In this document: one piece after another, positions 16,232-32,536 of the stretch | Numbering within the stretch: the first letter of the stretch is position 1 | Layout of the letters: each line of letters starts with the position of its first letter | DNA from: Lachnospiraceae bacterium 3-1 | GTDB taxonomy: Bacteria > Bacillota > Clostridia > Lachnospirales > Lachnospiraceae | NCBI GenBank assembly: GCA_000403255.2 | Contig: KE159591.1 | Coordinates: forward strand, 83,823 to 147,822 | Direction of reading: 5' to 3' | Length of the DNA: 64,000 nucleotides | The notes under the pieces: generated by a model | Seen by the model: only the letters and a program-made list of their open reading frames with translations | Databases searched by the model: none | Told to the model about the DNA's origin: nothing | Translations under genes and position numbers: made by a program

Positions 16232-17188
16232 ATGAAGGAAAAATATTTTAAGCACAACAGAAACATCCAAAGAAAATATTGGAGCAAAACCAGCACATGT
16301 TGCTTTCTGCTGATTCTGGCTTTGCTCCTTGGCGGTTGTTCCTCTCCTACTTCCACGAAAAAAAATACTCCTTCTGCCAAAACACCAACGCCAGCCGTCA
16401 CCGAAACACCAACGCCAACTGTTACCGAAACGCCGGAATCAAAAGAACAGTCCTTGGAAGACACCGAGGAAACATTTGATTTCAACCAGTCCCTAACATT
16501 AAAAGCTCCTAATCCAGCGGCTGGGGAAACCCCAAGAGTCTTATTTGTAGGCAACAGCCATACCTATACGAACGATTTACCAATCATTTTTTCTGAAATT
16601 GCAGCGGCAATGGGACATCAAAGCGATGTACAGGAGTTAACAGAAGGCTCTTACACTTTGACGCTATTTGCAGATCATACCGATGAGCTTGGCTCCATGC
16701 TAAATCAAAAGCTCACCGAAGAAACCTGGGATTTTGTAATCTTACAGGAAAATACAAATGATGCATTTTCCTTCCCAGAGGAAAATATGCTTCCTGCTGC
16801 GGCTTCTTTGGATGAAAAAATCCGGGCAGCAGGAGGACAGACTGCTCTTCTTATGACCTGGACCCCAAAAGAAGGGGCAAGCATTTTAGGACCAGAATAT
16901 GTCCAGTCTGTTCTGGCCCAGAATACCATTAGCGTCTCCAAGGAACTGGATAGCCTTCTCATTCCAGGAGGAGTAGCTTTTATGCGTTGTCTGGAACAAT
17001 ATCCTCAAATTGAATTATGGGACGAAGACGGTATGCATCCCTCCCTGGAAGGCTCTTATCTTGCAGCCTGCCTTGCCTATGCAGTAATCTTCCAAGAATC
17101 TCCTGTGGGATGTACCTACAACCCAGGGCTCGAGGAAGAAACTACCGCCCAACTCCAGGAACTGGCCGCTGGATTTCTTGTTCTATAG
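16232..17188 (+). CDS. SGNH/GDSL-type hydrolase lipoprotein
   Basis: 318 aa. A lipobox (LLLGGCSS) follows a basic N-terminus. A Thr/Pro/Glu-rich spacer of two repeats ([16 protein letters not shown]) tethers the catalytic domain to the cell surface. Block I is [13 protein letters not shown] with the nucleophile Ser, and block V is [13 protein letters not shown] with the Asp-x-x-His pair. The substrate is unknown, perhaps acyl or acetyl esters on polysaccharide. An AGAAAGGAA site precedes the ATG. Its TAG stop shares the palindrome CTATAG with the convergent molybdenum gene. Confidence 0.85.
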
Positions 17189-17209
17189 GAAAGACCTTGT
17201 CACGCTAAC
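17181..17209. repeat. half copy of the dispersed palindromic repeat
   Basis: The 29 bases starting TTCTATAGGAAAGACC and ending GTCACGCTAAC match the complement of the right arm of the 10551-10616 palindrome with one difference. Its CTATAG supplies stop codons to both converging genes, and the arm encodes the last residues of the MoaC frame. Confidence 0.75.
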
Positions 17210-18573
17210 TCCGTTTACATGAGAAAAATCACTTTTCCCTCCTGTTTTATCCACAAGATAGATTTCCCCAATCTTCATGTGCCTATCTAGCGCCTTGCAC
17301 ATATCATATATGGTTAAAAGCGCTAGATTAACCCCGGTCAATGCTTCCATTTCCACACCTGTTTTTCCTGTGACTTTTACGGTACAAAAACAGCAAATTT
17401 CTCTTTTTTGTGGGTCACCCTCAAATTCAATATGACAGTTTGTAATGGGAAGTATATGGCACATGGGAATCAGCTCTGAAGTTCTCTTCGCCCCCATAAT
17501 CCCAGCAGTAGCCGCTACGCCCAGAACATCACCCTTCTTTACCGTTCCTTGTTCAATTGCATCATAAACTTCCTGGTTTACCATAATTTTTCCAGTTGCT
17601 ACCGCTTGTACAAACCAACTGACCGCCATTTTGCTACTCTTTTCTTCTGGCAGCAGATAGTAATTATATTCAAAAGGCATCTCTGCCATGCTTTTCACTT
17701 TTACCTTCAGGCAATTTTTCTTCTTTTCTCCCCAGACGGGCACAAAATCATGGGCACGATACCCAACACTGGTAATATCCTTGGGAATTTCCTGTTCCAG
17801 ACAAAGACAGATGCCCCAGTCAGCCACCTCCATCCGGTGTGCATCTAACCGCCTGATATCTGCAATATTTTTACAACCTGTCAGTTTTGCCGCTTCCCGG
17901 TAAAGAGGTTTAGCAAAAATATCACGGGTCTTACCATACACCACACACCGCCCCTGATCCATCACCAGCAATTCCTGGCAAAACCGATAAATTTCATCTC
18001 TGCTGTGGGACACCAAAATTACCATGCCAGAGTAATCCCATAGCAGCTCCTCCAACTCCTTTTCCATTTGGTCTTTCAAAAACACATCCAGCGCAGAAAA
18101 AGGTTCATCCAGCAAAATGACATCCGGCTCACCTGCCATAATTCTTGCCAGGGCTGTCCGTTGCTGCTGGCCCCCTGACAATTCTCCTGGAAGTCTGTCT
18201 GCCAGGGATGTAAGCTGAAATTTTTCCATCATCTCCTCAATACGCCTTCGCTTTTCCGGTTTCCTGCCCTGTAGCCCGGCTCCAATATTTTCCGCCACCG
18301 TCATAGTAGGAAAAAGGGCATAATTCTGAAACAGATACCCAACCTTACGTTTCTGAGGCTTTGTATTTATTTTTCGTTCTGAATCAAACCACAAGGTTTC
18401 CCCCATCTTAATAAATCCCTTTTCTGGCTTTCCAATTCCTGCCAGCAATTTCAATGTCATGCTTTTTCCGCAGCCGGATGCCCCAGAATTCCAATTCGAT
18501 TGGAGTGTCCTTCAAATTCCACATCCAGACTGAACTCTCCTAGTGTTTTCTTGATTTGAACTACCGATTCCAT
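17183..18573 (-). pseudogene. modC: molybdate ABC ATPase ModC fused to MoaC, frameshifted
   Basis: The ATG at 18573 begins a ModC frame that reads to [13 protein letters not shown] and stops. The correct Walker A ([16 protein letters not shown]) continues one base out of phase. The shift lies in a run of four C at 18481-18484, one short of that needed. After it come [18 protein letters not shown], signature [16 protein letters not shown], Walker [13 protein letters not shown] and a TOBE-like region. Near 17605 the frame passes directly (SWFVQ to AVATGKI) into MoaC, the cyclic pyranopterin monophosphate synthase, with [16 protein letters not shown] and [20 protein letters not shown]. About 15 N-terminal MoaC residues are missing. 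The end is supplied by a dispersed repeat. Confidence 0.88.
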
Positions 18574-18594
18574 TTCTACATTCTCCTTGTGTTC

Positions 18595-19299
18595 CTACCA
18601 GCGTGTTACGTTGCGGTTCTTTTTTCCTGTAATTAAGTTCATCCATGCAATAATCACAAAGGCCAGCAGTACCATAACGCCTACCCACACCCCTGCCGTT
18701 ACGTAATCTCCATCCTGGATTACCATAGCAATTTTTTGAGAGACAGTCGCTGTTTTTCCAGGAATATTCCCCGCCAGCATGGAGGTTGCTCCATACTCCC
18801 CCAGCGCTCTTGCAAAAGTCAGAATCGTACCAGAAGCAATACCAGGACCAGCAGTGGGAAGAATTACCTGAAAGAAAATTTTCATCTCTGACATCCCCAA
18901 GGTTCTTCCAGCATAAATCAAATTAACATCCACCTGCTCAAAGGCTGCTCTGGCATTCCGATACATGAGGGGAAATGCAATCACTGTTGCCGCAATCACA
19001 CATCCTGCCCAGGACTGTACCACCTTGATGCCAAATACATCATACAAAAAATTTCCAAATGGCCGCCGTTTACTGAACACAAGCAGCAGAAAAAATCCTG
19101 CCACGGTGGGCGGAAGCACCAACGGAAGAGTCAAAAGTCCATCGATCACTGATTTCTTTTCCAAAGATAGCTTCATTCCTTTATATGCTGCATAGATCCC
19201 CAGAAAAAAAGAAAAACAAGTTGCCACTATCCCTGTTTTCAAAGAGATTAACAGAGGACTCCAATCCAGATTTTCCAAAATATTTTTGAATTCTTCCAT
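18595..19299 (-). CDS. modB: molybdate ABC transporter permease
   Basis: 234 aa from the ATG at 19299 with GGAGGAAG. Five to six membrane spans are present, with the ModB/CysT-type motif LTLPLVLPPTVAGFFLLLVF near residue 55 and the ATPase-contact loop AGRTLGMSEMKIFFQVILP. FARALGEYGATSMLAGNIPG is highly typical of ModB. It looks intact, but its partner ATPase gene 21 bases downstream is frameshifted, so the transporter may be dead unless another ATPase substitutes. Confidence 0.93.
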   Translation of the reverse strand: MEEFKNILENLDWSPLLISLKTGIVATCFSFFLGIYAAYKGMKLSLEKKSVIDGLLTLPLVLPPTVAGFFLLLVFSKRRPFGNFLYDVFGIKVVQSWAGCVIAATVIAFPLMYRNARAAFEQVDVNLIYAGRTLGMSEMKIFFQVILPTAGPGIASGTILTFARALGEYGATSMLAGNIPGKTATVSQKIAMVIQDGDYVTAGVWVGVMVLLAFVIIAWMNLITGKKNRNVTRW

Positions 19300-19371
19300 T
19301 CTCTTCCTCCAAACCAAAACTTTTCATTCTTTCCCCTTTCACATCTGAGATACCCGCAATTGCCTGACCTT

Positions 19372-20319
19372 TCAAAAACTTTTCAGATTTGTTTCTGCCA
19401 CATCTGGATCAAAATAATATTTTTCAAAGATTTCCTTTGTTGTATCCGACGAAAGAAATGTTATAAAATCCCTGGCTACTGCTGCCTGCTTCTCATCCGC
19501 CTCTGGATTCACCACCTGGGCGGCTGGATAGCGCACCTCTCCACTTAAGTCATAGCTTACCTTCTCCAAAATATCCAGGCGGTCTTCATACCCATAAATA
19601 TCAGAATAGTAAACTGTTCCCACTTCACAGGAGCCTTCCGCCACTGCCAACGTCACCTTGCTCACGTTATCCTGTTCACTAATTTCCACACCGCCAAGGG
19701 CTTGGGAGATCTGTATTGTTTCGGCCTGGGAGGGTTCCTCTGTTTTTTCAAGAATTCCAAGATTCATCAATGCCTGGCGGGTATACCAGCCCACTGGAAC
19801 ACTTCCCCCTGCCAGAGCAATACTAGATGCATCCCCAAAATTTTTCAGTCCTTTTACCTCTGTGCCACTATCTTTTGCCGCTATCACCACCACCTGATTA
19901 TGAACTACATTGCTCCTGGTTCCTTCCACAATTCTTCCCTCTGCTTCCAATTGATCCATCTGTTTCTCCGCTGCGGAAAAGAAAACATCACATGCATAGC
20001 CCTCCCGAATCTGTGTCACTAATGTACCTGAACTATCCATATTACAAACTATACTCACCTGTGGATGCAATTGTTGATAGGCCAATGCAAGCTCTTCGAT
20101 CGCCTTGCTTAAACTGGCAGCAGCAAAAACCTGAATTTCTATTTTCCCTTCTTTTGTTTCCCATTGTTCATCTTTGGAATCCTGGTCTCCCGATTCTCCT
20201 ATGTCCCCTTCCTGTCCTGTGTCTGCTTCCTGTGAATTCTTTTTATTTCCACAAGCTGTAATGGCCAGAATAACCGCTGCCGCCAATAAGACTTTCCATA
20301 TGTTTTGTTTCATTTTCAT
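19372..20319 (-). CDS. modA: molybdate-binding lipoprotein
   Basis: 315 aa. The start is set at 20319 (GGAGG three bases upstream); the ATG at 20313 is equally possible. The longer upstream frame is a shadow of mogA. The lipobox ILAITACGN is followed by an acidic linker and a ModA fold: VFAAASLSKAIEELA, MDSSGTLVTQIREG, CDVFFSAAEKQMDQL, LAGGSVPVGWYTRQAL. It captures molybdate or tungstate outside the membrane. The gene itself appears intact, in contrast to its neighbours on both sides. Confidence 0.92.
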   Translation of the reverse strand: MKMKQNIWKVLLAAAVILAITACGNKKNSQEADTGQEGDIGESGDQDSKDEQWETKEGKIEIQVFAAASLSKAIEELALAYQQLHPQVSIVCNMDSSGTLVTQIREGYACDVFFSAAEKQMDQLEAEGRIVEGTRSNVVHNQVVVIAAKDSGTEVKGLKNFGDASSIALAGGSVPVGWYTRQALMNLGILEKTEEPSQAETIQISQALGGVEISEQDNVSKVTLAVAEGSCEVGTVYYSDIYGYEDRLDILEKVSYDLSGEVRYPAAQVVNPEADEKQAAVARDFITFLSSDTTKEIFEKYYFDPDVAETNLKSF

Positions 20320-21102
20320 ACGCCTCCACACTCTTGGTCCGTTCCACGCAACAGGCCAAGTCCGTGTTTCAAGTGGGGAAGAACATATTCCAGGCTTTCT
20401 TTGACTGCCTTTGGGCTTCCTGGAAGATTCACAATCAAGGTGCTTTTGCGTATTCCAGATACTGCGCGGCTGAGCATCGCCCGGCCGGTAATCGTAAGGG
20501 AATACTGACGGATGGCATCTGCAATCCCCATAGCCATCCGGTCGCAAACTGCCATGGTTGCCTCTGGCGTCACATCCCGCTTGGCAAATCCGGTTCCTCC
20601 CGTTCCCCTGACGCCCCCTTGTCACTCAAGGTGATTACTGCTGCTGTAAAGGGACGGTCTTTTGCAAGGGGAAGCATGTGAATTTCATCTCCTGGTTTGA
20701 TGCTGCCGCCTGTGAGAACCTCCGTAAACACCCCCTCCCTGGGCATAATGCAGTCACCCATCACTTGATAAATTTCACAATGGCTATGGCACTCCTTCCC
20801 AATCTGGGTAAGTTTGAGCACTGCATTCCCAATCTGAAAGCAGGTTCCCACAGGGATTTGGGAGAGGTCAAATCCCTCCACCACCAGGTTTTCTCCAAAA
20901 GCTCCAAATTCTACTTCTGCACCCTGCTGCCGGAAATCCTCTATCTTTTCAAAAGAAAGCATACTCACCTGCCGATGCCAGTTCCCTCCATGGGCATCCC
21001 CTACAATCCCCCAATTTTCCTGCAAAAATGCCTGGGCACTTCTTTTTTCTGGGTTCCCTTTTTTTCACTGATGCAAATTGCTTTTATTTTTCCCATTTTC
21101 AT
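20316..21102 (-). pseudogene. MOSC-MogA molybdenum cofactor protein, two lesions
   Basis: The ATG at 21102 (GGAGG upstream) starts MKMGKIKAICISEKKGTQKK and then slips in a six-base homopolymer (21043-21048). The MOSC domain continues in another frame: ENWGIVGDAHGGNWHRQVS, FGAFGENLVVEGFDL, GKECHSHCEIYQVMGDCIMP. The MogA part starts AAVITLSDKGASGERE. About 50 residues are then missing, and the frame changes to GTGFAKRDVTPEATMAVCDR and ends near LGLLRG. The junction (20595-20602) is TCCTCCCG, complement CGGGAGGA, which fits both flanking codon contexts. That indicates deletion between short direct repeats. Confidence 0.85.
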
Positions 21103-22147
21103 CCTCCTATCTGCACCATCTGTTTTGCTTCCGTGATCTCCTCCACCCGTTCAAAATGGTGTTCCTGGGGCTTCTTGCTGACTGCCTGGAAAATCCGCTG
21201 TCTCAGCAATTCCTTTCGAATGGCTGTTTCATTTTCCCATGACAGATTCTTTAATTCCACAGTCCCACACTCCTGCAATCGCCATTTGCGAATAACACCT
21301 TCACTTCCCCGAAGGATTTCCATCAAATCCACTTCCTCTCCATAACACAGACAAGGCTTTAATTTGCCCTGGGATGTCAAACGAAGTCGATTGCAGCTTT
21401 GGCAGAATTTGCCATGGATGGCGCTAATGAAGCCTATGCTCCCCTTTGCCTTGGGAATCCGGTAATAAACAGCCGGTCCGTTGCCATGGATGCTTTCGTC
21501 TCTTTGCAAATCCGGGTAAATTTTCTTAAATCTACCCAATAATTCCCGGTGATCCACAGGCTCATATTTTTTTCCATAACCAATGGGCATCATTTCAATG
21601 TAGCGCACGTCCACCGGAAGAATCTTTGTCAATTCTGCCACTTCCAGCCATTCTTTCTCATTGACATTTTTTTGAAGAGCCACATTTAACTTGACAAAAA
21701 GCCCTGCTTCCACTGCATGTCTGATGCCTGCCAATACTTGATACAGCTTATCTTTTCCTGTAATCTGCTGAAAAATTTGTGGATCTAAGGTATCCAGACT
21801 GACATTGACCGCATCCAATCCATTTTCCAGCAGACGAGGCAAATACCGCTCTAGCTCCACCCCATTGGTAGTCATGGTCACCTGCTCAATTCCTGGAATC
21901 TTTTTAATCTGCCAATCAATTCTGGACAGCCCAGACGAACCAGAGGTTCTCCCCCTGTAATTTTCAATTTGCAAATTCCAAGCTCTGCAGCAGCCTGACA
22001 GACCAGTTCTATTTCCTCAAAGGTCAAAATATGCTCCATAGGAACCAGAGAAATTCCTTCCGGCATACAATACTGACATCTTAAATTGCAGCGGTCCATA
22101 ATGGAAATCCTCATATACTCAATCTCTCTACCATATTTGTCTTTCAT
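21099..22147 (-). pseudogene. moaA: GTP 3',8-cyclase MoaA, single-base frameshift
   Basis: The first 80 residues carry the radical-SAM motif RCNLRCQYCMPEG and LKITGGEPLVRLGCPELIGR. The frame then ends, and the rest reads in a second frame beginning KKIPGIEQVTMTTNGVELER. It continues through VNVSLDTLD, ALQKNVNEKEW and YIEMMPIG to the C-terminal cluster site FCQSCNRLRLTSQGKLKPCL. Loss of one base in the T run at 21901-21905 explains everything; with six the protein would be full length (about 350 aa). MoaA makes the first intermediate of molybdopterin synthesis. A sequencing error is the alternative. Confidence 0.85.
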
Positions 22148-22165
22148 TTTTATCTCCCGCTAACT

Positions 22166-22369
22166 TCAAATAGGCTCTAATAGTACGTCAATTACGCCTC
22201 CACAGACCATGCCTTCCTCCTGGGCATCCTCGCCGGTTAGATCTACATGATGCCGAACGCTTTTTTTCCCATTAGATCGGATCATGAAAAGAGCTTTTCT
22301 CACGATTTCTGCTTCTACGCATCCACCGCCAATGGTTCCGATACAGCTTCCGTCGGACATTACCAGCAT
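22166..22369 (-). pseudogene. XdhC/CoxI-family fragment
   Basis: 67 aa with the family core MLVMSDGSCIGTIGGGCVEA and the end EGMVCGGVIDVLLEPI. XdhC-like proteins insert or sulfurate molybdenum cofactor in hydroxylases. The normal 30-40 residues before the Gly-rich motif are absent. Upstream codons stay open only to a TAA near 22400, and the ATG at 22369 has no ribosome site. A good GGAGGAG site farther upstream leads into the wrong frame. I read it as a 5'-truncated remnant. Confidence 0.7.
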
Positions 22370-22489
22370 AATTGAAACATGTAACGCTCCTCCTACCTTT
22401 TAATAAATTTTTATCACGGTAATTTTTTATCCCAATCTTGAAATTATTGTGACTGCATGAGATAATGAATCACCAACTATTATTCTGAC

Positions 22490-22526
22490 AGATAATTGCA
22501 AAACTTCTAAGTTGCGTTAATTATCT
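22490..22526. promoter_or_regulatory. inverted repeat upstream of the DauR-like gene
   Basis: AGATAATT (22490-22497) pairs with AATTATCT (22519-22526) across 21 bases, directly before the ribosome site of the regulator gene. It is a candidate autoregulatory operator. Confidence 0.4.
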
Positions 22527-22555
22527 AAGTTATTCTGAAACAGAAAGGAAACATC

Positions 22556-23254
22556 ATGTCTAATACTATACTTGAACAATATAAAATCCTTGTAGATTTT
22601 CTGGGAAAAGCCCTAGGACCAGATTACGAAATTGTCCTTCACGACATTACCTCAGAACCTGGCCAGATTATTGCGATTGCCAACAGCCATATCAGCGACC
22701 GCACAATCGGCAATCCCACCACAAATGCAGCCTTACAAATGCTGGCAGCCAACTCTTACAAAACCAATGATTTTCTCTTTAACTATCCCGTAGCCGCAGA
22801 TGAAAATCATATCCTACGAGCCTCCACATTATTTATCAAAGACGAAGAAGGCAATCCCATCGGACTTTTAGGCATCAATTTTGATGATAGCCGCTATCGG
22901 AACCTCTGTGACAAACTGCTTCTTTCCCTTCATCCAGATGAATTTTCCCAGGCAAAAAACAGTCTTTCCCTAGAATCTCCTGCACCTGCCGAAGTTTCTC
23001 CCAAACAGCCTGACTCTCTTAAGGAGGATTTTCCCATGGATATTTCCGCCCTAATGCAAAAGGCATTTGATAGCGCAACCTCCTCTCTGGATACTCCCAT
23101 TGACCGCTTAAATCAACAAGAAAAGCGAGACATTGTACAAAAGCTTCAGGAGCGGGGCGTCTTCAAGTTAAAAGGAGGTATCGCCTTTGCTGCCAAAAAT
23201 CTTTCCTGTTCCCCTGCCACAGTATACCGTTATCTGGGGGATTTAGAAAATTAA
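22556..23254 (+). CDS. DauR/YheO-type PAS helix-turn-helix regulator
   Basis: 232 aa. Residues 1-120 match the YheO-like PAS domain (LGKALGPDYEIVLHDITS, GLLGINFDDSRYRNL). The C-terminal 60 residues form a helix-turn-helix of the DauR type (GVFKLKGGIAFAAKNLSCSP, ATVYRYLGDLEN). An AGAAAGGAAA site precedes the ATG. Proteins of this type often sit beside purine, dihydropyrimidine or D-amino-acid catabolic genes, so it likely governed the adjacent hydA/ygfK locus. It is intact although its presumed targets are broken. Confidence 0.85.
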   Translation: MSNTILEQYKILVDFLGKALGPDYEIVLHDITSEPGQIIAIANSHISDRTIGNPTTNAALQMLAANSYKTNDFLFNYPVAADENHILRASTLFIKDEEGNPIGLLGINFDDSRYRNLCDKLLLSLHPDEFSQAKNSLSLESPAPAEVSPKQPDSLKEDFPMDISALMQKAFDSATSSLDTPIDRLNQQEKRDIVQKLQERGVFKLKGGIAFAAKNLSCSPATVYRYLGDLEN

Positions 23255-24520
23255 ATGCGGGGCGCAGCAGTTTGGTATTTTCCCAGATATGCCTGACGAA
23301 TGATACCATTTTCTGCTGCTAGCATCCCCCTTAGGTATACCTGCTCTGCCCTTCCCTTAAGACATGTTCCTTCCAATGGACAATAGCCTGCCGCTGACTG
23401 TAAGGTATCGGCGATCAGCATCCATTCCCGGTCTGGATTCCACACCACAAGATCTGCATCACACCATAATGATACATCAATGCAGGCCGTTCCTCCGCCC
23501 CAGGCATTCCGCAGGGAGTTTTGGCAAAGTCATCTTCTCCAAACTCCTTCTGCTGCCTGGTAAAGCTGCAATGATCTGTGGCGATGGTCTGAATCTCTCC
23601 CTGTGCTAAGGCTTTCCACAAAGTCTCCTGATCTTTTTTCCCTCGCAGGGGAGGGGCAATCATATACATTCTTCCCTCACCCCCTGGCAGCTTGTAACGG
23701 CTCTCATCCAATAAAAGATACTGGGGACAGGTTTCCACAAATACTTCATTCCCTTTTTCCCTGGCATGCTTTACTTCTTCGCAGCCTTCTTTGGAGCTTA
23801 AATGGACGATGATCACAGGTGTGTCCACACAGGCAGCAATTTTCAAAATCCGGCTTACCGCCTCCGCTTCTGCAAGGGAAGGACGAGTGGCAGGATAATC
23901 TGATACTTCTCTTCGGTTCCCTTTGCTTTTCATAAGCTCCTTTAAACGAGCATCAATGATTCCTTTATTCTCACAATGAATCCCTGCAATCCCCTTAAGC
24001 TCCTTTAAGCGGGTAAGAATCTCATAAATTGTCTGGTCATCCACTACCATGCCCTCATAGGTGGTATACAATTTAAAGGAGCAAATCCCTCCTTCTACCA
24101 CCTGCTCCAATTCCTGGCTAACCCTCTCATTCCAGTCAGACAGGGCCAGATGAAAGGCATAGTCACAGCTTGCTTTTCCCTCTGCCTTTTTGTGCCAGCG
24201 CTCCAAAGCATATTCCAGGCTTTCCCCCCTGTTCTGGGTTGCAAAATCAATGATGCAGGTGGTTCCTCCTGAAATTTCTGCTTTCGTTCCACTGTCAAAT
24301 CCATCGGCTGTCACTGTACCTGACACCTCAAGATCCATATGGGTATGGGCGTCTATAAAGCCTGGAAACAGATATTTTCCTGACACGTTGATTGATTCTG
24401 CATCCTCTGCTTTAAGATTCTCACCCACGGCAAGAATTTTTTCCCCTTCTGTCAATACGTCTGCCCTTTGGATTCCTGCTCCAGAAACTACCATACCACC
24501 ATAAAACAACTTTTTTTCAT
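23251..24520 (-). pseudogene. dihydropyrimidinase-like amidohydrolase, broken
   Basis: A GGAGG site leads to an ATG at 24520, but the T7 run (24511-24517) puts that start out of phase with the gene. The body shows metal-site motifs FPGFIDAHTHMDLEVSG, GTTCIIDFATQ, SFKLYTTYEG, GIHCENKG, PVIIVHLSS and IQTIATDHCSFT, typical of cyclic amidohydrolases (hydantoinase/YgeZ). After RPALMYHYGV about 65 residues are missing, and the frame shifts at 23451-23463 into ADLVVWNPDREWM, which runs to the normal C-terminus. In purine-degrading anaerobes this enzyme opens ring intermediates. Here it cannot be functional. Confidence 0.85.
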
Positions 24521-24605
24521 AGAGGAAACCTCCTGCCCATTTTTTCTAATTTGATCGTTGCAAAACCTCTAAGCTCTTCTAATTTCACATAGAATCATTC
24601 GATTT

Positions 24606-26614
24606 TTATTCCAACAAATATGTATAATTTTTACATACTGTCTCTATCAATTTTTCTAGTCCTGGAAACAGCCTGCTTTCCTGTCCTGGCTCCCAGGTAA
24701 ATTCTTCCCCAAGATATCTTACCTTGCACTGTACCTTTTCTTTGTCCAGTACTGTAAATTCCTGATTCTTGCTGTCTGCCATATCCTTTTCGTTTGCAAA
24801 CAAGGTAAATTTATCCAGATAAGGCGCGCTGGCATAAGGACTAAGGTTCCCTGTTCCATACGAACGGGAGCTAACAGCTCTTTGAATTCCACGCCATCTT
24901 CCAACGCAAGGTTAAGCTCATGCTCATCCGCAGGCATATACCGCTTGGTTCTTCGATATACCAGATATACATGCTCTACTCCTTTACAGCGTTTTGCCGC
25001 CCTTGCTGTATCCATGGCAGTATTGCCGCCGCCAATCACAACCACATGTTTTCCTGGTTCCATGTTTCCTTTGGTCTGATTGAATTTTTCCAAAAAATCC
25101 AAAGCGTTTACTGTCTGCTTTCCTTCCAGCTCCAATTGGCTTCTCTTAGAAGCGCCCACTGCCAGAATTACATGGTCATACATGGACCGAAGGGTTTCCA
25201 CCGATGGAGCCTTTGTCTGATATTTCAGATTCACTCCAAGGTGTTCCAGCAAAGAAACATCCTTTGCGATTACTTCATCATCAATTCTAAAATCAGGAAT
25301 TACTGCGCTTACAATGCCGCCAAGCTTCTCCCGTTTCTCATAGACAGTCACCTCCACGCCCATCTTAGCCAGATAATAGGCTGCTGCCATACCAGATGGG
25401 CCTCCGCCCACAACAGCAGCTTTTTTGCCGGAAGCATCCTGTGCTTTCAGCGTTTTGACTACTTTGTCATAGCCTTCCTCTGCACACAAAAGCTTGGTAT
25501 CCCGAATCTGTACCGGAGTTTCATAGAAATTACGGGTACAATGGCTTTGGCATCCATGGGCGCAAATGGTTCCTGTGATAAAAGGCAGCGGATTTTTATT
25601 CAAAATCACCTGAAAAGCCTTCTCATAATTTCCTTCTCCTGCCAGCTTCATGTAAGTTGTAATTTCCTGATGAATAGGACAAGCATCCTCACAGGGAGCC
25701 GTAAAGCATCCCATCAACGGCGCTTTTTCTGAGGATTTTCTGGACACGGGAAGCTTCGCCGATTTTACATGGTAGGGATTGGTCACAGCAGCCTTTGCAG
25801 TCTTACTCAAGTCCTCTGCGTCAATCCCAGTAAAAGCCTTCCATCCCTTCTCATCCAAAATCTCTGCTACCTGTTTCATTCTCTGATAACCTCCTGGCTT
25901 TAACAGGGAAGTTGCTATGGTTACTGGCCAAACGCCTGCGCCCACAATTTTTTCTATATTAAATGCATCAGCGCCACCAGAATAGGAAATCCGCAGTTTT
26001 CCCTCAAATTCTCTGGAAAGCTTTGCTGCCAACGCAATGGACAACGGATATAAGGATTTCCCTGACATATACATTTCCTCACTGGGAAGCTCTCCTGCTT
26101 TTACATCTACTGGAAACGTATTGGTAATTTTTACACCGAATTCCAGTCCTTTTTCCTCAGACAGCTTCATCAGCCGCTGCAGCATAGGCGCCGCATCCTG
26201 ATACTGTAGGTCGTCTTCAAAGTGGAATCTGCCAAAAGCCACATAATCATACCCCATATGATCCAAGGTTTCCCGGGCAAACTCATATCCCAAAAGAGTA
26301 GGATTGCACTTAATAAAGGTATGCATCTTCTTTTCGGTCAGCAGATAATTTGCAATGCTCTCAATCTCCTGGGGCGGACATCCGTGAAGTGTGGATATGG
26401 TGGCAGAATTGCAAATTTTGGAGGAAATACCCTCGATGTCTTCTTTGGTAACATGCTTAAATTCTCCAACATGTGCAAGCAGAACCTCCCGGCACTCCCT
26501 GAACGTCTCTGTCTGACTGGCATCCTTCATATTTTCTATGAAAGCATTTATCTTTTCTGACTGTATGCCTGCCAGATCATATCCCACACTAATGTTGAAC
26601 TGGAATCCATCCAT
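24606..26614 (-). pseudogene. ygfK: YgfK-like selenate reductase/FeS-flavoprotein subunit, truncated and internally deleted
   Basis: Homology begins at DGFQFNISVGYDLAG, about 180 residues inside the usual protein. It runs through GCPPQEIESIANYLL, the cysteine-rich APCEDACPIHQEIT and GTICAHGCQSHCTRN, the FAD/NAD motif AAVVGGGPSGMAAAYYLA and VVVIGGGNTAMDTARAAK. After VRMEQGTLV (near 24842) the frame changes to YASAPYLDKFTLFANEKD, the C-terminal tail. A block that should include the last dinucleotide-binding part and ferredoxin cysteines is lost. The N-terminus ends head-to-head against ygeW. YgfK belongs to the anaerobic purine-degradation set. Confidence 0.85.
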
Positions 26615-27079
26615 GCAAAGAAATCTGGCGGCACATTCACCAAGACAAACAGCATGGCAGAAGCCTTCAAAGACGCTGATATTGTATATCCAAAGAGCTG
26701 GGCTCCTTTCGCTGCCATGGAAAAACGTACGGAATTGTATGGAAACGGAGATACCGAAGGCATCAAAGCCTTGGAAAAGGAATTGCTGGCACAGAATGCA
26801 CAGCATAAAGACTGGGCATGTACCGAAGAGCTTATGGCTTCCACCAAAGATGGAAAAGCCCTCTATATGCATTGTCTGCCTGCAGATATTTCCGGCGTAA
26901 GCTGTGAAGAAGGAGAAGTAGACGCTTCTGTATTTGACCGTTACCGCAATCCATTATATAAAGAAGCCAGCTTCAAGCCCTACATTATCGCCGCTATGAT
27001 TTTCCTTGCAAAATTTGCAGACCTGACAGATATTTTAAAGAAATTAGAAGAACAGAAAACACCTAGGACCTTTGAATAA
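26612..27079 (+). pseudogene. ygeW: YgeW-like carbamoyltransferase, C-terminal remnant
   Basis: The last 155 residues of a knotted carbamoyltransferase remain: SGGTFTKTNSMAEAFKDADI, VYPKSWAPFAAMEKRTELYG, ALYMHCLPADISGV and the end ILKKLEEQKTPRTFE. The HCLP motif binds ornithine-like ligands in the family. The carbamoyl-phosphate half, about 250 residues with the STRT-like motif, is missing. The remnant abuts the broken 5' end of ygfK on the other strand near 26615, with no promoter left. Confidence 0.85.
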
Positions 27080-27106
27080 TATCCAGTGAAAGGACTGTCG
27101 TAAAAT

Positions 27107-28051
27107 ATGTCAAAAAAGAAAAGAGTTGTAATTGCCCTTGGGGGAAATGCCTTGGGCAATACACTTCCAGAACAAATGAAAGCTGTAAAAATTACAGCAA
27201 AAGCAATCGTGGATCTGGTGGAAGAAGGCTGTGAGGTGGTAGTTGCCCATGGAAACGGTCCTCAGGTTGGCATGGTAAACAATGCCATGATCGCATTGAC
27301 CCATGAAGATGAAAGCCAGCCCAACACCCCTTTGTCTGTTTGTGTCGCCATGAGCCAGGCTTATATTGGATACGACCTGCAAAATGCTCTTCGGGAAGAA
27401 TTGCTAAACCGGGGCATCGCAAATATCCCAGTTGCCACCATGATTACACAGGTACGGGTAGATCCAAAAGATCCAGCTTTCCAGTCTCCTTCCAAGCCCA
27501 TCGGCAAATTTGTATCTTCCCAACAGGCAAAAATGATGGAGGAAAAATTCAACTATGTGATGAAAGAGGATTCTGGGCGAGGATACCGACGGGTGGTTGC
27601 TTCTCCGAAGCCAGTAGAAATTATTGAAATTGATACCATCCGCACCATGGTAAATTCCGGCAACCTGGTAATTGCCTGCGGTGGCGGCGGAATTCCCGTC
27701 ATCCGCCTGGAAAATCATTTAAAAGGCGCCAGCGCTGTGATTGATAAAGATTTTGCAAGCTGCTTACTGGCAAAAGAACTGGATGCAGACTTTTTAATTA
27801 TTCTCACTGCTGTGGAACAGGTGGCTTTAAACTTTGGAACACCAGACGAAACATGGCTGCAACAGGTATCTGTAACAGAAGCAAAGGAGTATATCAGCCA
27901 GGGTCACTTTGCCCCCGGCTCCATGCTTCCAAAAGTGCAGGCTGCCGTAGATTTTGCTGGTTCCAAACCAGGGCGCACCGCCTTAATCACTCTACTTGAA
28001 AAATCAAGGGATGCCATTCAAGGGAAAACCGGAACTACATTCTCCCTGTAA
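27107..28051 (+). CDS. arcC: carbamate kinase
   Basis: 314 aa, full length. Nucleotide-binding and substrate motifs are clear: RVVIALGGNALG, VVAHGNGPQVGMV, GRGYRRVVASPKP, IACGGGGIPVI, AVIDKDFASCLLA. It converts carbamoyl phosphate and ADP to ATP, carbamate and then ammonia plus CO2. In this locus it would harvest ATP from carbamoyl phosphate made by the YgeW reaction during purine or ureide breakdown. It begins 28 bases after the broken ygeW and is the only intact catalytic gene of the cluster. Any promoter must lie inside the remnant. Confidence 0.95.
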   Translation: MSKKKRVVIALGGNALGNTLPEQMKAVKITAKAIVDLVEEGCEVVVAHGNGPQVGMVNNAMIALTHEDESQPNTPLSVCVAMSQAYIGYDLQNALREELLNRGIANIPVATMITQVRVDPKDPAFQSPSKPIGKFVSSQQAKMMEEKFNYVMKEDSGRGYRRVVASPKPVEIIEIDTIRTMVNSGNLVIACGGGGIPVIRLENHLKGASAVIDKDFASCLLAKELDADFLIILTAVEQVALNFGTPDETWLQQVSVTEAKEYISQGHFAPGSMLPKVQAAVDFAGSKPGRTALITLLEKSRDAIQGKTGTTFSL

Positions 28052-30825: not shown

Positions 30826-32478
30826 CTAAATTTCGTTTGCTGCATGATATCCGCTGCGAATTGCTGCTGCAATGTCGGCAGTTCTTTCACCAGCGCAGTC
30901 TCCGATCAACGTAAGTGGTACGGTAATCTCCTTTCCATCCCACACATTCTTCTTAGAGCCCAAAGCATTGACAATGGTATCTGCATGAATGGTACATTCC
31001 GTTCCTTCCTGGGTATTCTCAGCATAAATCACATTATCACGGATTTCTTTTACTTTTGTATTCACATGCTGTTCTACCCCATGGGCTTCAAAATCTTTCA
31101 AAATCAACGGCAGTACTGTTGCAGATTCCCCAGATGCAATTTTATCAAGCATTTCTATAATAACCACCTTGTGTCCTCTGGAAGCTAAGTATTCTGCTGT
31201 CTCCGTTCCAACCAAGCCGCCTCCTAAGACTGCGCAAACGCCAGAAGCCTCTGCCCCCGCTAAAATCTCCCAAGCAGAGCAAACATTGCTGTTTTCTGCC
31301 TTCATTGGAAGGGGCATATTATGCGCTCCAACTGCAACAATCACTGTATCAAAATCATTTAACTCCTGGGCTGTCGGCTGAGTATGAAGCTTTAATTCTA
31401 TTGAAAGTGTCGGCAGGATTTTCTCATAATAAGTAATAGCTCGCAGAATTTCACTTTTTCTAGGCGGCACGGCTGCCAAGTGGATTTGTCCGCCGATTTT
31501 ATCTCCTTTTTCAAAAAGTGTTACCTGATGTCCTCGTTTTGCTGCAACTCTTGCTGCTTCTAAGCCTGCAATTCCTGCTCCCACAACGGCAACTTTTTTG
31601 GGATCGGCTGCTTCTTTTAAGAAGATGGTTGCCTCGTCCCCGTTTTCTGCATTGAGAATACAAGAGATATATCTACGGTTCTGAATCGCATCTACACAGC
31701 CTTTATTGCAATTTAAACATTCCCGAATACATTCTCCAGCAGCAGTTTTCACCGCAATATCCGGATCTGTCAGCAGCGACCTTCCGTATCCAATCACATC
31801 GGCCTCTCCCTGTTCCAAAATCCGCTCCCCAGCCTCTGTGGTAACAACTCTTCCCACCGTAGCAACTGGAATAGAAACAACAGCTTTTACTTTCTTGGCA
31901 GTGGGAAGCGTCCAATTGTAAGAAACATCTCCCATAGGCGGTATGGTATCTCCCATATTTCCGGTATGGTTTGCTTGCGCCACCTGAATCATATCTACCC
32001 CTGCCTCTTCCAGAAGCTTTGCAAAGGCAATGGCTTCTTTCGTTGTTTTTTCTGCGAGGGCGGTCTGCTTTTGACACTCTTCCTCATTTCCGGCAGCCTG
32101 TGCATCTGCAGCGGCTTTCCGAACCATGTTTGCACCCATAATCAACCGTCCTACTCCCTGAACATCATATTCTGGATGAAAAATCTGCAAGGCTAGCTTA
32201 CTGCCATGGACATGCAGAGCGTCAGCCAGTTTTTGGAATGCTGGAATCTGGCTGTCTTCATAAAGCATAGGGGTTGGGGAAGCGGTACGGACAGGTGCAA
32301 CATCACCGATTACGATATATGCCGTTCCACCTTTGGCCAAACGTTCATAAAAACTTAAACTCCGGGGACCGATGGAACCGTCCCGTTCCTCATAACCGGT
32401 GGTCAGAGGAGGAAACATAATTCTGTTTTTCAATGTCATGCCGCCTACCTGAATTGGCTCTAATAATTTTTTTCCCAT
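30826..32478 (-). CDS. NADH:flavin oxidoreductase (OYE plus FAD/NAD domains), probable internal loss
   Basis: 550 aa from the ATG at 32478 (GGAG ten bases upstream). An OYE-type FMN barrel starts LLEPIQVGGMTLKNRIMFPP. A 4Fe-4S motif follows (CIRECLNCNKGCVD), then two dinucleotide folds (VAVVGAGIAGLEAARVA and VCAVLGGGLVGTETAEYLA). Relatives such as 2,4-dienoyl-CoA reductase, BaiCD and 2-enoate reductase are about 640-670 aa. Here the barrel runs from KTTKEA straight into IAFAKLLEEAGVD near 32035, skipping about 100 residues that include the substrate-binding HGAHGYL-like block. It is in frame but probably catalytically impaired. Confidence 0.8.
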   Translation of the reverse strand: MGKKLLEPIQVGGMTLKNRIMFPPLTTGYEERDGSIGPRSLSFYERLAKGGTAYIVIGDVAPVRTASPTPMLYEDSQIPAFQKLADALHVHGSKLALQIFHPEYDVQGVGRLIMGANMVRKAAADAQAAGNEEECQKQTALAEKTTKEAIAFAKLLEEAGVDMIQVAQANHTGNMGDTIPPMGDVSYNWTLPTAKKVKAVVSIPVATVGRVVTTEAGERILEQGEADVIGYGRSLLTDPDIAVKTAAGECIRECLNCNKGCVDAIQNRRYISCILNAENGDEATIFLKEAADPKKVAVVGAGIAGLEAARVAAKRGHQVTLFEKGDKIGGQIHLAAVPPRKSEILRAITYYEKILPTLSIELKLHTQPTAQELNDFDTVIVAVGAHNMPLPMKAENSNVCSAWEILAGAEASGVCAVLGGGLVGTETAEYLASRGHKVVIIEMLDKIASGESATVLPLILKDFEAHGVEQHVNTKVKEIRDNVIYAENTQEGTECTIHADTIVNALGSKKNVWDGKEITVPLTLIGDCAGERTADIAAAIRSGYHAANEI

Positions 32479-32536
32479 AGTATTTGTTCTCCTTTTGTAT
32501 TGTAATATTTTAGGCAATTGTAAAACTCATATAAAT

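Follow-up and report, generated by a model that had tools for sequence, protein, structure and literature searches.

The closest described system is the reductive uric-acid cluster of Escherichia coli (XdhD, YgfK, SsnA, HyuA, YgeW, YqeA, YgeY, and YgeX), as set out in an extract of PMC12507026. According to that extract, urate is reduced by an XdhD-type molybdoenzyme and then dearomatised by YgfK; SsnA and HyuA then open the ring, and YgeW, YgeY, and YgeX degrade the ureido groups and diaminopropionate. The loci of the selenium-dependent molybdenum hydroxylase (SDMH; partial text of PMC2276186) are a second point of reference. Here, we describe a related locus in a 64,000-nucleotide stretch of DNA from Lachnospiraceae bacterium 3-1 (contig KE159591.1, positions 83,823 to 147,822; G000:C21:83823-147822 in our numbering), called the window here. 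The genome (5.08 Mb in 27 contigs) is 96.75% complete with 3.94% contamination, and the contig bearing the locus is 636 kb long. Positions 17183–28051 of the window are the collapsed remnant of a 19-gene locus. We are highly confident that this is a recently pseudogenised locus with many separate lesions, a case of ordinary pathway decay.

The 19-gene locus and its collapsed remnant

We compared 29 genomes of the genus (G000–G028, one per species, with the window genome as G000); the relatives are mostly fragmented assemblies. By protein comparison, G008 and G006 hold 19 of the 19 locus genes in a common order. The genes arcC, ygeW, ygeY, and ygeX lie on one strand, and the permease, ssnA, ygfK, and hydA on the other. 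The regulator dauR is reversed, and it is followed by xdh, mocA, a moeA-like gene, xdhC, moaA, MOSC-mogA, modA, modB, modC, and moaC. Xanthine dehydrogenase (TIGR03311), SsnA (TIGR03314), YgfK (TIGR03315), hydantoinase (TIGR02033), and an NCS2 permease score above their NCBIfam cut-offs in the congener locus, and the match to the xanthine permease pbuX lies marginally below its own. Matches above cut-off were also obtained for YgeY, for carbamate kinase, and for the family of diaminopropionate ammonia-lyases (TIGR01747). The labels mocA, moeA, xdhC, and mogA are best matches, mostly below the family cut-offs. The set of xdh, ygfK, ssnA, hydA, ygeW/arcC, ygeY, and ygeX is found in both congeners, and the window has only remnants of it, with four of the genes gone. 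The enzymes encoded by the congener locus are those described for reductive uric-acid degradation.

The integrity of the genes in G008 and G006 was checked wherever an outgroup had the gene (9–13 genes per outgroup). We rejected the view that the G008 locus is fully whole: ygeX (L023 2195–3220) has lost approximately 35–40 codons near its end, out of frame, and was flagged against 10 of 10 outgroup loci. The end of moaA in G006 (L021, approximately 16660–16780) is broken by a repeated segment and was flagged by all three outgroup loci that hold moaA; moaC of G006 falls marginally below the coverage limit in one of the two outgroup loci with moaC. However, ygeX is unbroken in G006 and moaA in G008, and as far as the outgroups allow a check, every locus gene has an unbroken counterpart, in the common order, in at least one of the two congeners.

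The distance from arcC to moaC is 10.9 kb in the window compared with 26.7 kb in G008. Two deletions of 6–7 kb account for most of the shortening; the other lesions are small, four of them deletions and two of them frame breaks. Seven genes (ygeY, ygeX, pbuX, ssnA, xdh, mocA, and moeA) were lost through the two large deletions, and ygeW, ygfK, hydA, xdhC, moaA, mogA, modC, and the start of moaC are disabled (Table 1). One large deletion, measuring 6.1–6.9 kb in the relatives, removed xdh, mocA, moeA, and the 5′ part of xdhC and left a scar near 22360–22389. The other (6.7–6.8 kb in the relatives) took ssnA, pbuX, ygeX, and ygeY; the 5′ truncations of ygfK and ygeW are its two ends, which overlap at 26613–26616. 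The ygfK remnants lack codons 1–142 and approximately 735–925 (G008 protein numbering), and approximately 155 C-terminal codons of ygeW remain. The smaller deletions sit in ygfK, hydA, MOSC-mogA (approximately 50 codons), and the modC-moaC border. The frame of moaA breaks around codons 80–100, and that of modC at what we take to be the Walker A motif. The 314-codon frame of arcC is open, and the one stop counted there in the comparison of nonsynonymous and synonymous rates (dN/dS) fits codons 5′ of the start.

The original prediction had listed seven lesioned genes (modC-moaC, MOSC-mogA, moaA, xdhC, hydA, ygfK, and ygeW). All seven were found at the positions it gave, and alignment to G008 and G006 confirmed the lesions and added the seven lost genes to the list. 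The genes it had called intact (modA, modB, dauR, arcC) are whole by profile matches and by comparison with G008; the dauR label is adopted from it. Its out-of-frame deletions and 5′ truncations stood, and the origin at short repeats that it proposed was neither confirmed nor refuted. The breakpoint overlaps of approximately 1–7 bases, clearest at mogA and at ygfK/ygeW, are indistinguishable from chance because the relatives are only approximately 68–84% identical in DNA.

Table 1. Features of the collapsed locus, in window coordinates.
Feature	Position	Strand	Evidence
moaC, first codons missing, fused in frame to modC tail	17183..17605	-	Pfam MoaC profile 13-136; moaC separate in G008 and G006
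modC, frame broken at presumed Walker A region, tail deleted	17606..18590	-	tblastn 18484-17606 against G008/G006 modC; alignment and three-frame view
modB, intact	18595..19317	-	TIGR02141 above cut-off; 98% of G008 modB in one frame
modA, intact	19372..20310	-	TIGR01256 above cut-off
MOSC-mogA fusion gene, internal out-of-frame deletion near 20595-20603	20322..21064	-	G008 residues 12-172 and 222-310 in separate frames
moaA, one small frame break near 21896-21935	21102..22159	-	two tblastn frames; alignment; three-frame view
xdhC, approximately the last 70 codons remaining	22166..22369	-	XdhC_CoxI Pfam; 67 residues aligned to G008 and G006 xdhC
Deletion scar, xdh start joined to xdhC 3′ part	22360..22400	-	blastn breakpoints against G008 and G006
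dauR-like regulator (YheO-type PAS and HTH), intact	22556..23254	+	Pfam PAS_6 and HTH_22; full length against G008
hydA (D-hydantoinase family), out-of-frame deletion of approximately 100 bp near 23460	23266..24515	-	relative's protein TIGR02033 above cut-off
ygfK, two remnants in different frames	24612..26616	-	relative's protein TIGR03315 above cut-off
Junction of single deletion of approximately 6.7 kb, ygfK codon 142 to inside ygeW	26613..26616	.	G008 positions 18723 and 11987 meet with 4-base overlap
ygeW, C-terminal part only	26613..27079	+	TIGR03316 profile 254-391 of 391, 254 bits against full-length cut-off of 500
arcC carbamate kinase of the locus, intact	27107..28051	+	TIGR00746 above cut-off; 87-91% to locus-type arcC of 4 congeners

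Molybdoenzymes, cofactor genes, and remnants in the genus

Four families of molybdenum or tungsten enzymes were searched for in the window genome: MoCoBD_1 (PF02738), Molybdopterin (PF00384), Oxidored_molyb (PF00174), and AFOR_C (the tungsten family PF01314). At E ≤ 0.001 this genome, which is 96.75% complete, has no match to any of the four; as positive controls, 5, 11, 9, and 5 of 14 reference genomes had matches, respectively. No second moaA or moaC was found in the genome, the single match to each lying in the locus. Elsewhere in the genome YgfK has distant paralogues only, which are 29–35% identical among the matches listed. The original prediction suggested that loss of a molybdoenzyme pathway had relaxed selection on the whole set; it named the absence of any molybdoenzyme as support, and intact paralogues of moaA, moaC, or mogA serving a retained molybdoenzyme as refutation. 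With no molybdoenzyme found and no second moaA or moaC, its interpretation is supported. Purine or urate breakdown, its guess for the pathway, agrees with the reductive uric-acid enzymes of the congener locus; the selenium dependence that it attached to this route is not supported, as described below. Because the molybdoenzyme, SsnA, YgeX, and YgeY of the locus are gone, the reductive urate route should not run in the window genome, judging from gene content, unless there are paralogues of ssnA, ygeX, ygeY, or hydA outside the locus, for which no search was made.

SelD scored above its family cut-off in none of the 29 genomes, including G006 and G008, and in 2 of the 14 controls; sub-threshold matches occurred in 29/29. 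In G008, the sub-threshold protein reaches 148 bits as HypE compared with 98 bits as SelD, both below cut-off. YqeB (TIGR03309) does not appear in the family lists of ten locus proteins (four of these lists stop at 25 families), and no genome search for it was made. On the SelD scores, a selenium dependence of the pathway is not supported, despite the ‘selenium’ family names in the locus. MoaE (PF02391) was present in 11 of 14 controls and gave no match in the 29 genomes, G006 and G008 among them. The E. coli MoaE also had no match at E ≤ 1 in any fetched locus, and the E. coli MoaA and MoaC match 21 and 18 loci. Given the absent MoaE, molybdopterin synthesis in the species with the locus is unexplained.

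A trace of the locus was found in 10 of the 29 genomes and none in 19, several of the genomes being incomplete; the searches used MoaA, MoCoBD_1, YgfK, MoaC, and ArcC together with mapping of the fetched loci. G022 (74% complete, many contigs) has most of the genes, no mocA match, and a different dehydrogenase that is 56% identical. G021 has parts of pbuX, ssnA, ygeX, and ygfK missing, and its xdh and ygeY contain one stop each. In this fragmented genome, ygfK without its last 170 or so codons also continues into hydA as one 1,333-residue frame, a deletion fusion (L027 3813–7658). Scraps of xdh and modC are left in G001; a broken arcC, moaC, and a portion of ygeW in G011; modA and scraps of modB, mogA, ygeY, and arcC in G016; and moaC with a modC scrap in G025 and G026. 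MoaC is kept without a close MoaA match in G011, G025, and G026. The remnant breakpoints differ between the lineages (G001, G011, G016, G021, and G025/G026). Since the remnants hold few stops (1 in 340 codons in G001, 0 in 585 in G011, 1 in 605 in G016, and 2 in 3,318 in G021), the losses in these lineages also look young or in progress.

On an rpoB tree of 27 of the 29 genomes (two had no match), G001 groups with G006 and G008, G000 groups with G016, and G011 belongs to the second main clade. On this tree, five changes are needed to explain the label ‘remnant’ (G001, G011, G016, G025, and G026), at least four of them on well-supported branches. We count G025 and G026 once, since their moaC genes (L157 10047–10508 and L158 11033–11494) differ at 0 of 462 bases, despite a difference of 0.118 at the 4-fold sites of rpoB. 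The identical moaC points to recent recombination or to mixed bins; the presence of a moaC frame with no close moaA match is itself odd.

Loci found with the YgfK piece of the window served as a wider control. Among the best 80 of 293 named loci, ygfK is covered to at least 98.5% in one frame in 75. The five short cases are L039, L054, and L073, which are at contig ends, and L047 and L074. In L074, from a Lachnospiraceae metagenome-assembled genome (7687–16364), ygfK begins at codon 205 and lies directly beside ygeW, and xdh is split; no match to ygeY, ygeX, pbuX, or ssnA was found in this locus. From its gene arrangement, L074 is a parallel of the ygeW/ygfK deletion in the window, the same kind of loss.

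Age and nature of the lesions

No stop was found in the 6,528 bases of broken frames (ygeW left out), against an expectation of 263.5 stops per neutral substitution per site. If the broken frames are neutral and the lesions real, fewer than approximately 0.0114 neutral substitutions per site (95%) have accumulated since selection lapsed. The distance between G000 and G016 is 0.62 per 4-fold rpoB site. Because no stop is seen where approximately 264 are expected per substitution per site, the loss in the window genome looks very recent, and probably only a few percent of the time that separates G000 from its split with G016 has passed since; on this rpoB scale it would therefore be independent of the decay in G016. 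Compared with G008, dN/dS is 0.038–0.092 for the broken genes and 0.026–0.105 for the intact genes (xdhC, with saturated dS, left out); every gene compared has a dS above 1, which makes the ratios rough. Relaxed selection, as raised dN/dS or as stops, was not seen in the broken frames against G008. Either the decay would be too young to show it, or some of the lesions may be errors.

The possibility that the breaks are base-calling indels and mis-joins, that is, sequencing or assembly error, was addressed with a frame-split test (identity 60% and coverage 0.5, with the same thresholds for locus and control; real genes only). Of the 19 locus proteins of G008, ten pass these thresholds in the window, and four of the ten (ygfK, hydA, moaA, and mogA) are split; the break in modC is missed by the test. 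Among 125 G025 orthologues in nine anchor regions covering 360 kb of the window genome, only one is split (Fisher p = 8e-5), and three more are short without a split. Looser thresholds gave 4/10 against 1/136. When G000 proteins were instead compared with G025, 3 of 128 appeared split and one was short. On the same contig outside the locus, 0/7 (G008 queries) and 0/5 (G006 queries) are split, which are too few orthologues for a control. Base-calling errors cannot produce the six deletions, which measure at least approximately 100 bp, the absent molybdenum and tungsten enzymes fit a real loss, and the length of the contig also speaks against mis-assembly. Several points do weigh against a real decay of the whole locus. 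The small frame breaks in moaA and modC lie near short base runs, and these two, taken alone, could be base-calling errors. No nonsense codon stands alongside the lesions, and the absent stops and unraised dN/dS are also expected from indel errors. In addition, the lesions are seen in one assembly of one strain, and the completeness and contamination of the genome, the fragmented state of most relatives, and the paralogues left out of the search count on the same side. Given the control rate and deletions that range in size from approximately 100 bp up to 6.7 kb, error is unlikely as a general cause; on the split rates of locus and control we rejected it as the main one and leave it a very small probability.

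Two further explanations accept the lesions as real. A single old loss in an ancestor of several species, with remnants being erased only now, would account for the decay in both G000 and G016, which are rpoB sisters, and for the same remnant in G025 and G026. Under a loss before the G000–G016 split, the broken frames of G000 should hold approximately 80 stops (half of 0.62 multiplied by 263.5), and none is seen. The decayed G001 is also nested with G006 and G008, both with all 19 genes, on supported (starred) rpoB branches, and the breakpoints vary by lineage. We consider one shared loss distinctly improbable. The survivors could alternatively be a trimmed useful unit, either molybdate uptake with MoaC or carbamate kinase with its regulator. 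The intact modA, modB, dauR, and arcC, the last of these highly conserved, are in keeping with such a unit, as is the MoaC retained in G011, G025, and G026. Against it, modC has lost the frame at its Walker A region, moaA is broken, and the elapsed time is too short for relaxed selection on the survivors to be seen. With six small lesions placed at random, these four genes escape with p = 0.18, and four or fewer intact genes are left with p = 0.08. Because p is 0.18 under this model, the survivors need no special explanation, and arcC, dauR, modA, and modB need not be kept for function. We hold a trimmed unit to be improbable as well, and prefer recent pseudogenisation of the whole locus.

Elsewhere in the window, positions 30826–32517 (minus strand) encode a bilirubin-reductase-type protein (NF045599, 797 bits against a cut-off of 750). 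Its frame has 566 residues, compared with 674–756 for the homologues of G001, G006, G008, and G016, all four of which align with a gap at one common place. Approximately 110 internal codons appear to be gone in frame, perhaps a second gut function lost near the decayed locus. Rfam gave no match in the window at the gathering threshold.

Proposed course of the decay and comparison with known systems

In host-associated bacteria, deletions and frameshifts often disable the linked genes of a pathway jointly, and pseudogenisation in itself is ordinary. For the window genome, the ancestor would have had one 19-gene cluster for anaerobic reductive breakdown of uric acid or purines. Its pathway part would comprise the xanthine dehydrogenase-type enzyme, YgfK, SsnA, HydA, YgeW, YgeY, YgeX, ArcC, and the nucleobase permease, with the molybdate-uptake and cofactor genes serving that molybdoenzyme. 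With the enzyme or its pathway gone, the cofactor would have had no other user among the genes found in the genome. Selection would then have lapsed on the whole set, and the two 6–7 kb deletions, the four smaller ones, and the small frame breaks could have accumulated. The anatomy, the lesions, the missing enzyme families and second cofactor genes, the stop-free broken frames, and the differing remnants in sister species are observed; the first step of this course and the recency of the loss we infer, and we take lost usefulness, rather than a gain from the loss, as the likely driver.

The interest lies in the parallel and apparently recent series within the genus. Uricolysis and its dedicated cofactor pathway may be in the course of being lost now, independently, across one gut genus. 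We hold this reading tentatively, at somewhat less than an even chance. It counts six lineages at differing stages (G000, G001, G011, G016, G021, and G025/G026), with G006 and G008 carrying a first lesion each. If it is true, older wrecks would soon be removed in their entirety, or the hosts or the gut would have undergone a shared recent change (in urate supply, molybdenum, or competitors) that removed or reversed the benefit. The genus would then be a graded natural series, from a near-whole locus to a bare site, for the death of a pathway and its private cofactor supply. With near-whole, breaking, broken, and bare sites at hand, the order and speed of this loss could be measured. No literature on loss of this cluster within a genus was found, judged by titles and the starts of abstracts among the matches listed. 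Breakdown of urate by gut bacteria is medically relevant: in the extract of PMC12507026, serum urate in mice was lowered by an E. coli engineered to degrade urate. In the present genus, the pathway varies between close species through apparently recent loss, and the name of a genus would then say little about uricolysis.

Like the E. coli cluster, the congener locus combines ygfK, ssnA, hydA, ygeW, ygeY, ygeX, and carbamate kinase with an enzyme of the xanthine dehydrogenase family. It differs in that the congener dehydrogenase is one chain of the TIGR03311 family and in that the cofactor and molybdate-uptake genes lie inside the same cluster; the cluster of the window is, moreover, broken. 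The congener families TIGR03311, TIGR03314, TIGR03315, and TIGR03526 carry a selenium label in their NCBIfam names, which they share with the SDMH loci (PMC2276186). Unlike in SDMH loci, SelD does not reach its cut-off in any genome of the sample, and TIGR03309 is not shown among the families of the ten locus proteins.

Ordinary pseudogene clusters of host-associated bacteria likewise follow the loss of a pathway. The present case differs from them in that one locus has decayed separately, and it seems recently, in several congeners.

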